Assembly: GCA_003647765.1 (NCBI GenBank)
Contig: QMNM01000106.1
Coordinates: 1-5,898 of the forward strand
Origin: Candidatus Cloacimonadota bacterium
Lineage (GTDB): Bacteria > Cloacimonadota > Cloacimonadia > JGIOTU-2 > B8-G9
Direction: 5' to 3'
DNA: 5,898 nt
The position numbers and the translations under genes are program-made. The notes beneath the pieces are model-generated. The model did not search any database and was not told the DNA's origin. It saw only the letters and a program-made list of their open reading frames with translations. This document shows positions 4,453-5,898 of this stretch, one piece after another (the stretch's first letter is position 1; every line of letters starts with the position of its first letter).

Positions 4453-4480
4453 TTGACAATATAAATTTTAGGTTTATATT
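4453..4480 (+). promoter_or_regulatory. Sigma70-type promoter for the DUF134/DUF5320 genes
   Basis: A perfect -35 box TTGACA (4453-4458) is separated by 16 nt from a -10 box TATATT (4475-4480), which matches TATAAT at five of six positions. Transcription would start near 4487, giving a short leader of about 20 nt before the ATG at 4509. It is the best promoter in the window and lies directly before the predicted regulator gene. Confidence 0.75.
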
Positions 4481-4498
4481 ATGAACATAAGTTCATAA
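4479..4498 (+). promoter_or_regulatory. 20-bp palindromic operator candidate overlapping -10 box and ribosome binding site
   Basis: The half-sites TTATGAAC (4479-4486) and GTTCATAA (4491-4498) are perfect 8-bp inverted repeats around ATAA. The left arm overlaps the last bases of the -10 box, and the right arm runs into the ribosome binding site AAGGA (4498-4502). A dimeric protein bound here would block RNA polymerase. The next gene encodes a helix-turn-helix protein, so autorepression is the simplest reading, but this is inferred from position only. Confidence 0.65.
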
Positions 4499-4508
4499 AG
4501 GATTAGTT

Positions 4509-4967
4509 ATGCCAAGACCAAGAATAGAGCGAAGAGTTAAAGAACCGCCGAGATTTCAGCGGTTTAAACCTGTTGGAATCCCTGCCAGATTATTAGAGCA
4601 GATTCCGTTAACTTTAGATGAATTTGAAGCGTTAAGATTGGCAGATTATAATGATTTGGAACATGAAGCAGCTGCGAATCAAATGGAAATCTCCCGTCCA
4701 ACTTTTACAAGATTAATTGATGCAGCAAGGAAAAAGGTGGCAAGAGCTCTTGTGGAAGGCAAGGAAATTTTTATAATGGGCGGCTCTGTATATTTCAGAA
4801 ATAATATAATTAGATGCCTTAATTGTGGAACTATAATTCAGACTGATTTTGAAAATGATGCTACTATAAAATGTCCTAATTGTGGTGGAACTGAGTTCGT
4901 AAATCTGGCACAGCAGTTTGGCTTTGGCAAATTTAACAGAGGAAGACGAGGACATGGCAGAAGATAG
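4509..4967 (+). CDS. DUF134/UPF0251 helix-turn-helix DNA-binding protein with C-terminal zinc ribbon
   Basis: The N-terminal part of this 152-residue protein matches the DUF134/UPF0251 family: RPRIERRV at the start, FKPVGIP (19-25), then LTLDEFEALRLAD (34-46). A sigma70 region 4-like helix-turn-helix follows (about 48-83, EAAANQMEISRPTFTRLI...ARKKVARAL), and then the closing GG (91-92). Most family members end near this GG. Here about 60 residues follow with a zinc ribbon of Cys103, 106, 122 and 125 (CLNC and CPNC, Cx2C-x15-Cx2C) and a Gly/Arg-rich basic tail (KFNRGRRGHGRR) that could bind nucleic acid. It is predicted to be a transcriptional regulator of this locus. Its promoter carries a 20-bp palindrome that it could bind as a dimer. 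The ribosome binding site AAGGA (4498-4502) is 6 nt before the ATG. The gene ends in TAG and is followed after 54 nt by a DUF5320-type gene, a pairing seen often for these families as I recall. Confidence 0.88.
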   Translation: MPRPRIERRVKEPPRFQRFKPVGIPARLLEQIPLTLDEFEALRLADYNDLEHEAAANQMEISRPTFTRLIDAARKKVARALVEGKEIFIMGGSVYFRNNIIRCLNCGTIIQTDFENDATIKCPNCGGTEFVNLAQQFGFGKFNRGRRGHGRR

Positions 4968-5021
4968 AAAGATTAAAGATAAAAGAATAAAAGATTAAAG
5001 AATAAAATTAAGGAGGCTAAG
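4968..5021 (+). repeat. Purine-rich spacer with a 12-nt direct repeat
   Basis: AAAGATTAAAGA occurs at 4968-4979 and again at 4990-5001, a 22-nt period inside an almost wholly A/G/T leader. No stem is possible in it. It leads into the strong ribosome binding site TAAGGAGG (5009-5016), 5 nt before the next ATG, so it may keep that site open in the mRNA. It may also be only replication slippage. Confidence 0.5.
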
Positions 5022-5378
5022 ATGCCAAGAGGTGATAGAACAGGTCCTGACGGAATGGGACCAATGACAGGTAGAGGATTGGGTTATTGTGCTGGTTATT
5101 CAAGTCCGGGATTCACAAGAGGTGTTCCACGCGGTGGTGCTGGTTATGGATATGGTTACGGTCGTGGTTATGGATTCGGTCGTAGGGGAGGATTTGGATA
5201 TGGTAGAGGATATGGTAGAGGATTCTATCAAAATCCTTATTATGGATATCCTTCATATCCTTACCCTTATTCAAAAGAAAATGAAGAACAGATGCTGAAA
5301 GATGAATTGAAAATAATTAAAGAAGAAGCAAAAAACATTGAGAAAAGACTTGACGAATTAAAAGCCAAGGATAAGTAA
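5022..5378 (+). CDS. DUF5320-type small protein with Gly/Arg/Tyr-rich low-complexity middle
   Basis: A 118-residue protein in three parts. Residues 1-26 carry the DUF5320-type signature (MPRGDRTGPDGMGPMTGRG, then GYCAGY with the only Cys, C23). Residues 33-83 are low complexity: GYGYGYGRGYGFGRRGGFGYGRGYGRG and then a Tyr/Pro stretch (YYGYPSYPYPY). Residues 84-118 are highly charged with hydrophobic spacing (L92, L96, I99, I106, L110, L113), probably a coiled-coil helix for oligomerisation. There is no signal peptide or membrane segment. The function is unknown. The RG/GY composition resembles RNA-binding or condensate-forming domains in other proteins, but that is analogy only. TAAGGAGG lies 5 nt upstream of the ATG, the strongest ribosome binding site in the window, so high expression is plausible. 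It is probably co-transcribed with the DUF134 gene. An overlapping + strand frame (5089-5298) is a shadow. Confidence 0.85.
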   Translation: MPRGDRTGPDGMGPMTGRGLGYCAGYSSPGFTRGVPRGGAGYGYGYGRGYGFGRRGGFGYGRGYGRGFYQNPYYGYPSYPYPYSKENEEQMLKDELKIIKEEAKNIEKRLDELKAKDK

Positions 5379-5386
5379 CCCTATAA

Positions 5387-5424
5387 TTCAGGGAGGGCTT
5401 CAAATTGCTCTCCCTGAAAAAATT
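5387..5424 (+). terminator. 12-bp GC-rich hairpin after the first DUF5320 gene
   Basis: TTCAGGGAGGGC (5387-5398) pairs with GCTCTCCCTGAA (5407-5418) through 12 pairs, one of them G-U, around an 8-nt loop. It begins 8 nt after the stop codon and is the most stable stem seen in the window. A's rather than T's follow on the + strand, so it is not a standard intrinsic terminator. It could be a transcript 3' end or stabiliser, or attenuate expression of the genes downstream. Confidence 0.5.
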
Positions 5425-5443
5425 TGAGTAACAAAATTTACAT

Positions 5444-5522
5444 GGCTGTCATTGACCATTCCATAGCAGAACCAGGCTGTCATGGACCATTCCATGACAG
5501 ATTCACGGCATGGACAATGACA
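5444..5522 (+). repeat. Cluster of palindromic repeat units in the DUF5320 intergenic region
   Basis: Two 27-nt direct copies of GGCTGTCATkGACCATTCCAT plus rrCAGA lie at 5444-5470 and 5475-5501, with 24 of 27 positions identical and a period of 31. The second forms a perfect hairpin: CTGTCATGG (5477-5485) and CCATGACAG (5492-5500) around ACCATT. A third, inverted part-copy CATGGACAATGACA (5509-5522) has an 11-bp arm that complements TGTCATTGACC of the first copy with one mismatch. This may be a dispersed intergenic palindromic repeat or a multi-site operator for the downstream genes. Confidence 0.7.
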
Positions 5523-5558
5523 ACTAAGGAATCTACCCGTATATTGAGGGAGGTATAA

Positions 5559-5798
5559 ATGCCAAGAAAAAACGGTACGGGTCCAGAGGGTTTAGGACCA
5601 GGAACCGGCAGAAGAAGAGGACCTTGCTTTGGAAGTTTATATAATAAGAAAGGCCATATATCTATCTGGCGTTCACTAATATTGCCAGTAGTAGGCTTTA
5701 TTATAAATGATGCCCGAAAATCAGATGGAATTACACAGCGAACTGTTCGAGGATTAATAACGCATTTTAAAAATAAAAAACAAGTTCAACAAGATTAA
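5559..5798 (+). CDS. Second small DUF5320-type protein with a divergent C-terminal half
   Basis: A 79-residue protein. Residues 1-24 repeat the family signature (MPRKNGTGPEGLGPGTGRRRG, then PCF with C23 at the same position as in the upstream paralogue). The rest is unlike that paralogue: it lacks the Gly/Tyr-rich stretch. It has a short hydrophobic run (LILPVVGFII, 40-49) too short for a sure membrane helix, followed by NDARKSDGITQRT and a basic tail. No function is known to me. GAGGGAGG (5546-5553) lies 5 nt before the ATG and strongly supports the start. It is preceded by the palindromic repeat cluster and followed after 61 nt by a third gene with the same Met-Pro-Arg start. Shared N-termini with different C-termini suggest a common targeting or assembly module joined to variable tails. 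Confidence 0.75.
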   Translation: MPRKNGTGPEGLGPGTGRRRGPCFGSLYNKKGHISIWRSLILPVVGFIINDARKSDGITQRTVRGLITHFKNKKQVQQD

Positions 5799-5859
5799 GA
5801 AGACAAAAAAGTCATAAATGCTGATTTTAAAGTAGTGGAAACTGAGAAAGGAGATAAAT

Positions 5860-5898
5860 ATGCCACGAGGTGATGCCATGCCTGGCGGCAGACAAGGA
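5860..5898 (+). CDS. Start of a third MPRGD-type small protein, cut by the window edge
   Basis: Only 13 codons are visible (MPRGDAMPGGRQG). The MPRGD start is identical to that of the DUF5320-type protein at 5022, and AAAGGAG (5847-5853) lies 6 nt upstream of the ATG, so a real gene start is likely. The remainder lies outside the window. It would be the third tandem member, with a variant signature in which the usual GTGP is not evident. Confidence 0.6.
   Translation, partial: MPRGDAMPGGRQG

Follow-up and report, generated by a model that had tools for sequence, protein, structure and literature searches.

A DUF134 protein as the very probable autoregulator of an ORP-type metal-cluster locus with DUF5320 small proteins in Candidatus Cloacimonadota

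Introduction

At the right-hand end of a contig from a Candidatus Cloacimonadota bacterium, a gene for a DUF134 (UPF0251) protein is followed by a row of small genes that, like it, begin Met-Pro-Arg, and the question is what such an array does and whether it is a system in its own right. The stretch analysed, here called the window, is 5,898 nucleotides long and is the entire contig G000:C132 of a draft genome (1.97 Mb, 360 contigs, 88.8% complete). An earlier note, made from the letters alone, had read the array as an undescribed system, made up of a regulator and diversifying tandem paralogues, and had suggested a metal-cluster or redox role. In the literature on DUF134, UPF0251 and DUF5320, as far as it was accessible and with subscription papers outside the search, we found no study of function or operator. 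Comparison across genomes indicates that the window is the broken-off left (5') end of a widespread anaerobic metal-cluster gene cluster.

The genes of the array

The gene coordinates and start strings reported in the earlier note proved correct, and the array reads as follows:

4509..4967, + strand: DUF134 (UPF0251) regulator (PF02001, E 1.5e-26, 93.2 bits against a cut-off of 27)
5022..5378, + strand: DUF5320 protein 1, 118 aa (PF17253, E 3.6e-26, 92.7 bits against a cut-off of 27)
5559..5798, + strand: DUF5320 protein 2, 79 aa (PF17253, E 4.7e-7, 31.3 bits against a cut-off of 27)
5861..5898, + strand: start of a fourth gene, MPRGDAMPGGRQG..., 38 bases, after which the contig ends

The start string ATGCCAAGA stands at 4509, 5022 and 5559, and ATGCCACGA at 5861. 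Kinship between DUF134 and DUF5320 on the strength of the common MPR start was considered and rejected: the families are different, and DUF134 proteins begin M-x-R-P anyway. The two tandem small proteins do form one family, as had been supposed, each scoring above the Pfam cut-off despite their differing C-termini, with the match in the 5559 gene limited to residues 1-29. Contig G108:C33 (JAGGUR010000041.1, a Candidatus Cloacimonadota MAG) is 97.5% identical to the window over 3.4 kb and extends further; in it the fourth gene has its full form of 86 aa, with a DUF5320-like N-module, which matches, and a four-Cys zinc ribbon, the protein as a whole reaching 20.9 bits with PF17253, below the cut-off of 27.

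Elsewhere in the window, positions 1787-2197 encode a free-standing archaeal-type threonyl-tRNA synthetase editing domain (PF08915, E 5e-40) beside a Sir2 gene. Of 59 Cloacimonadota genomes, 9 have this domain above cut-off; the 14 control genomes yielded it in just three, the archaea M. jannaschii, S. acidocaldarius and M. acetivorans.

Gene neighbourhood and domain fusions

The neighbourhood survey covered 117 genomes of the phylum and placed 92 DUF134 matches above cut-off. A DUF5320 gene lies no more than 5 kb from DUF134 in 68 of these 92, where about 0.6 would be expected, and all 103 DUF134-DUF5320 pairs are on the same strand; an MTH1175-family gene lies no more than 6 kb away in 70 of the 92. 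Counted by genome, both families occur in 72, DUF134 alone in 11, DUF5320 alone in 3 and neither in 31 (Fisher p 9e-16). The adjacency of DUF134 and DUF5320, for which the earlier note had asked for just such a survey, is thus far above chance, and the NifX-like/MTH1175 and Mrp/MinD-type genes that it had named are indeed regular neighbours.

Named genomes yielded 80 DUF134 loci, spread over Cloacimonadota, Bacteroidota, Spirochaetota, Marinimicrobia, Chlorobiota, Methylomirabilota and other groups. These loci typically begin with DUF134 and one to four DUF5320 genes; MTH1175 comes next, then a pair of MinD-type ATPases carrying ferredoxin insertions and finally MTH1175 again, and this order is also found in Bacteroidota, Spirochaetota, Marinimicrobia, Chlorobiota and other phyla. 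Among the 62 loci with a clear start, DUF5320 was found within 4.5 kb downstream in 48, MTH1175 in 45 and the ATPases in 39, counts that include many contigs ending early.

Single-frame fusions join the same partners. MTH1175::DUF5320 occurs in three Cloacimonadota genomes, with a DUF5320 part rich in His and Cys, and DUF134::MTH1175 in two other Cloacimonadota genomes; in the one fusion of each of these two kinds that was scanned, both domains score above the Pfam cut-offs. DUF134::DUF5320 forms a single frame in one genome. To judge from the sequences, the fusions tie DUF134, MTH1175 and DUF5320 together more firmly than adjacency does, and the small Gly/Arg-rich proteins go together with metal-cluster proteins.

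The window contig stops before any MTH1175 or ATPase gene, and in its own draft genome these genes lie on contigs C294, C200 and C101. C294 carries DUF5320, two MinD-ferredoxin ATPases and another short DUF5320; C200 carries an MTH1175 gene that closely resembles the one 3' of the array in G009, a genome of the same order as the host; and Mrp is on C101. From the arrangement in G009, C200 would be the continuation of the window contig. Of the two ATPase genes on C294 (locus L064), the one at 721-1641 has a broken frame and the second copy, at 1905-2765, is intact.

A second conserved DUF5320 neighbourhood was met in three genomes (L193-L195; G041, G107, G016), where a DUF134-type operator lies 5' of DUF5320 genes and these in turn are followed by uracil-DNA glycosylase-like and radical SAM-like genes, assigned by reading.

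Promoter and candidate operator

Upstream of the DUF134 gene the following elements were found:

4453..4480, + strand: promoter-like site, -35 TTGACA (4453-4458), 16-nt spacer, -10 TATATT (4475-4480), 11 of 12 in a consensus scan
4481..4496, no strand assigned: candidate DUF134 operator ATGAACATAAGTTCAT, adjoining the -10 element

The promoter-like site is a candidate for the one strong promoter assumed in the earlier note, with the qualifications that other promoter-like matches are present as well and that a hairpin, described below, lies between the two DUF5320 genes. The operator contains a 14-base palindrome, TGMACATAWGTKCA, at 4482-4495, and the perfect form WTGMACATAWGTKCAW occurs a single time in the host genome, on the 5' side of the window DUF134 gene. 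When up to 200 bp upstream of DUF134 starts were searched with no more than 2 mismatches to TGMACATATGTKCA, the palindrome was found at 101 of 113 distinct starts, mostly at a distance of 26-58 bp from the start codon. The remainder of these loci predicts a background of 0.017 per 200 bp, a figure in which some true sites are included. In most genomes a TTGAC/TTGC -35 and a TATATT-like -10 flank the site; in the window's group it is next to the -10.

The specificity of the site is seen when whole genomes are searched. The 117 genomes contain 49 perfect copies of the 16-mer, against 2 for a control pattern read backward, and 40 of the 49 are at DUF134 (binomial p about 1e-146); the others comprise three DUF5320 operons without DUF134, one Mrp gene, two sites at a lipoprotein-metallohydrolase operon and three inside unrelated genes. 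The lipoprotein-like gene, uncharacterised, and the metallo-beta-lactamase-fold gene behind the operator are conserved in two genomes (L198, L199; G039:C437, G009:C41), and they may be further members of the regulon. In a second set of 50 further genomes, reached via the named loci and mostly of other phyla, 36 of 44 sites lie directly at DUF134 and one at DUF5320, in a Chlorobiota genome whose DUF134 gene has no operator; of the seven other sites, two are accounted for by DUF134 genes whose leader is longer. Matches of the TGTGGACATATGTTCAAT type inside DUF134 genes were rejected as operators, as they encode the CGHMFN zinc-ribbon motif, and single-mismatch sites in the host genome, nearly all intragenic, were taken as chance.

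The operator also follows the gene cluster, being present at 52 of 53 cluster-linked DUF134 genes versus 3 of 7 unlinked ones with enough flank. The genes next to those three are a cydA-like oxidase gene; a transporter gene with a flavin disulfide reductase-like gene; and a gene for a His-rich zinc-ribbon protein, assigned by reading and not by profile. These gene types would fit a redox or metal signal.

Further contexts were noted in other phyla. In a Bacteroidota locus (L135, 7001-10353), a pair of cytochrome bd oxidase-like genes comes after a DUF134 gene with the operator, which hints at oxygen or redox as the signal. In a Chlorobiota genome (L207, G139:C10:1109), a perfect operator lies between TonB-type receptor-like and molybdenum hydroxylase-like genes, again by reading.

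Co-variation of DUF134 and its operator

DUF134 consists of a sigma-70 region 4-like helix-turn-helix (codons 36-83) and a four-Cys zinc-ribbon-like part, whose structure model is of low confidence. The four Cys (C103, C106, C122 and C125) are invariant in the alignment, which suggests a metal or Fe-S site.

4614..4757, + strand: DUF134 helix-turn-helix region, predicted recognition helix from residue 63, residue 64 being Pro here

Residue 64, at the beginning of the predicted recognition helix, is either Pro or Ser among DUF134 proteins, and the choice goes with the half-site of the palindrome: Pro64 proteins number 50, 46 of them with symmetric TGAAC half-sites; of the 51 with Ser64, 46 have TGCAC in one or both half-sites. 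The Fisher p of 3e-18 is inflated by relatedness, and independent pairs were therefore counted on a tree for which residue 64 had been masked; of 13 independent switches 10 are concordant, none is opposite and 3 are neutral (two-sided sign test, 0.002). The residue was picked first, from the visible P/S split in the alignment, and the scan of all positions came after; in that scan it has the highest mutual information with half-site type among all DUF134 positions compared. This co-variation is the best evidence that DUF134 itself reads the palindrome. The view of DUF134 as a regulator, put forward in the earlier note, is thus upheld, in that the protein behaves as one by its conserved operator and by the co-variation of residue 64 with the half-site.

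By sequence (E 3e-5), the DUF134 helix-turn-helix resembles the DNA-binding domain of Bacillus subtilis DeoR (SorC family), the structure of which is known with its operator. The fold of the DUF134 model is like those of DeoR and sigma-70 region 4, with 0.7-0.8 A over 40 residues for DeoR. Unlike DeoR, DUF134 has no sugar-binding domain and carries the four-Cys module after the helix-turn-helix.

The DUF5320 small proteins

Proteins of the DUF5320 family are rich in Gly, Arg and aromatic residues, basic and mostly disordered, and usually have one conserved Cys. Protein 1 of the window has a pI of 9.4, and its residues 1-85 are 32% Gly, 12% Arg and 22% aromatic with one Cys; its predicted structure is disordered except for one helix. 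The parts, from alignment, composition and model, are:

DUF5320 protein 1: N-module MPRGDRTGPDGMGPMTGRGLGYC, Gly/Arg/aromatic middle, C-terminal helix 85-116

Protein 2 is made up of the N-module and a hydrophobic segment; an in-frame TAA at 5796-5798 truncates it to 79 aa, while the 97.5% identical relative has AAA and a protein of 104 aa. A PDB sequence search with DUF5320 returned nothing beyond weak low-complexity or coiled-coil matches.

The idea that these paralogues are diversifying locally did not survive comparison. The array holds three distinct small-protein types, with a coiled-coil tail, a hydrophobic segment or a zinc ribbon, and the same three recur, conserved, in related genomes (G114 and G009).

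The gap between the two DUF5320 genes holds a further element by RNA folding:

5387..5418, + strand: 12-bp hairpin, possible processing or attenuation element

No T run follows the hairpin, so that it is not a standard terminator. In the same gap a partly duplicated GGCTGTCAT...GACCATTCCAT stretch lies at 5443-5520, one copy of which is missing in the relative.

Proposed mechanism and alternatives

The reading that we favour, and as a whole consider probable, is that of an ORP-type locus in which DUF134 reads TGMACATAWGTKCA and the DUF5320 proteins serve as tails in trans. The comparison made here shows the gene set and its order, the fusions, the conservation and specificity of the operator, and the co-variation. 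DUF134 is, on these sequence grounds, very probably the autoregulator of the locus, a one-component regulator that would control its own promoter and further promoters of the gene set by binding TGMACATAWGTKCA there. It likely acts as a repressor, because most genomes have the operator between -35 and -10 and in the window it adjoins the -10, its position being the sole basis for this assignment, and a metal or redox signal, perceived through the four-Cys module, would release it. The DUF5320 proteins would most likely supply MTH1175-domain proteins with a tail in trans and hold anionic Fe-S or Mo/Cu-S clusters, much as the cationic tail of IssA has been proposed to do for thioferrate, while the MinD-ferredoxin and Mrp ATPases would load or move the clusters. 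Direct binding by DUF134, repression, the signal and the role of DUF5320 are what we infer in this scheme. Counting against it, the window contig itself has no MTH1175 or ATPase gene, those of the host being on other contigs with one ATPase frame broken, four of the seven unlinked DUF134 genes have no operator, and the operators at cydA-like, transporter and oxidoreductase-like genes could mean a broader redox role.

We speculate, with a good deal of doubt, on a more specific version, in which DUF134 would be a metal- or redox-sensing repressor of a widespread anaerobic TGMACATAWGTKCA regulon whose main targets build an unrecognised metal-sulfide storage or assembly body, the DUF5320 proteins being IssA-like trans tails whose condensation with ORP/MTH1175 proteins is controlled by the MinD-ferredoxin ATPases.

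Unlikely in our view is that DUF134 is an activator and that the ORP-type complex serves cell division by MinD-like positioning, with the DUF5320 proteins as structural partners of the ATPases and not as holders of clusters. A putative part in cell division has been ascribed to Desulfovibrio ORP proteins, the cluster has MinD/ParA-type ATPases as a constant component, and the predicted C-terminal helix of DUF5320 could be a coiled coil; an operator inside or beside the core promoter, however, suits repression better than activation, and DUF5320 is fused to MTH1175, not to ATPases, with a fused tail rich in His and Cys.

It is less probable still that the DUF5320 proteins are RG-rich binders of nucleic acids, such as G-quadruplexes or RNA, with a feedback effect on cluster expression. 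A survey of archaeal proteins lists one DUF134 and one DUF5320 protein among its hits for quadruplex-binding RG motifs (PMC7565180), and the middle segment of DUF5320 is indeed rich in Gly, Arg and aromatic residues, yet that prediction is one by motif, and the MTH1175 fusion together with the His/Cys-rich and zinc-ribbon versions points to metals.

The palindrome could, in principle, be read by a different regulator and not by DUF134, for instance as a LexA-type SOS box, which we hold to be very improbable. GAAC-N4-GTTC comes close to the palindrome, and its core GAACATATGTTC resembles Gram-positive SOS boxes, as TGCAC-N4-GTGCA does some other LexA boxes. The string occurs in a paper on the S. 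aureus SOS response, and a uracil-DNA glycosylase-like gene is present in three Cloacimonadota DUF5320 operons. Neither lexA nor recA turned up, however, among the non-DUF134 perfect sites examined in the 117 and 50 genomes, the site tracks DUF134 and the cluster, and residue 64 tracks the half-site across independent switches; the SOS reading was rejected for want of a lexA or recA target. Finally, that the array is a mere neighbourhood without shared function or an oddity of assembly, as a short contig in a 360-contig draft might suggest, is refuted by the survey, the same array being found on an independent contig at 97.5% identity and its order being conserved across phyla.

On the preferred reading, with DUF134 at the palindrome and DUF5320 in trans, DUF134 gains a predicted operator, regulon and specificity residue and DUF5320 a defined partner, which makes the roles of both testable, and the function of the poorly understood ORP system could be approached via the signal of its regulator.

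Comparison with known systems

The proposed likeness of DUF5320 to IssA is one of composition and attachment. IssA of Pyrococcus furiosus is an iron-sulfur (thioferrate) storage protein, whose unstructured tail of pI 10.7 is rich in Gly and aromatic residues, has cationic residues and the protein's one Cys, and has been proposed to bind thioferrate (PMC5524996). In IssA an MTH1175-type domain is combined with a disordered, basic Gly/aromatic tail with a single Cys, a composition that DUF5320 shares, and DUF5320 is joined to MTH1175 in the fusions of three genomes; the parallel lies in the published description of the tail and in this attachment, there being no sequence match. Unlike the IssA tail, DUF5320 in the window stands alone as a protein and has a conserved N-module and a C-terminal helix of its own, and MTH1175 and a cationic tail are found in one protein only in other Cloacimonadota genomes.

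A likeness in gene content is seen to the orange protein (ORP) complex of Desulfovibrio vulgaris (Orp3, Orp4, Orp5, Orp8, Orp9/MrpORP). The relatives of the window, like the complex, have two MinD-type ATPases with two 4Fe-4S stretches, an MTH1175 protein nearest to 2WFB, and Mrp-type ATPase genes. G009 holds a complete cluster with an Mrp-type ATPase at its end; its cluster ATPases combine CbiA/ParA with two Fer4 stretches, the same ATPase-plus-ferredoxin description that is given for Orp3 and Orp4 (PMC6345978). The last MTH1175 protein of this cluster has the Desulfovibrio orange protein 2WFB as its nearest PDB entry (E 1.7e-19). An Orp8-like MTH1175 protein is thus found in the relative, and the host genome has MTH1175 genes on contigs other than the window; the Orp3/Orp4 pair, two MinD ATPases with 4Fe-4S inserts, is present in G009 and on C294 of the host, there with one frame broken. 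Mrp and MTH1175, which are fused in MrpORP (Orp9), are separate genes in G009 and on C101 of the host, and fused ATPase-MTH1175 forms occur in other phyla (L125, L148).

The differences lie at the head of the cluster. Unlike the Desulfovibrio ORP operons, clusters of the window type are led by DUF134 and DUF5320, and whereas the orp operons are described as divergent and under sigma-54, IHF and DVU2106, the window has a sigma-70-like promoter and a candidate DUF134 operator at 4453-4496 in place of DVU2106-type sigma-54 control. The array is thus no undescribed, self-contained system, as the earlier note had proposed, being the 5' end of a cluster with the ORP-complex gene set known from Desulfovibrio. 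The gene set was already known; what appears new, against the literature searched, is DUF134 with its operator and DUF5320 leading a common variant. The 14-base target of the DUF134 switch is previously unreported in the searchable literature, where the operator strings were found only in papers with unrelated titles. Since the gene set spans Bacteroidota to Spirochaetota and Marinimicrobia, we suggest that the Desulfovibrio ORP system is one variant of a broad anaerobic metal-cluster system.
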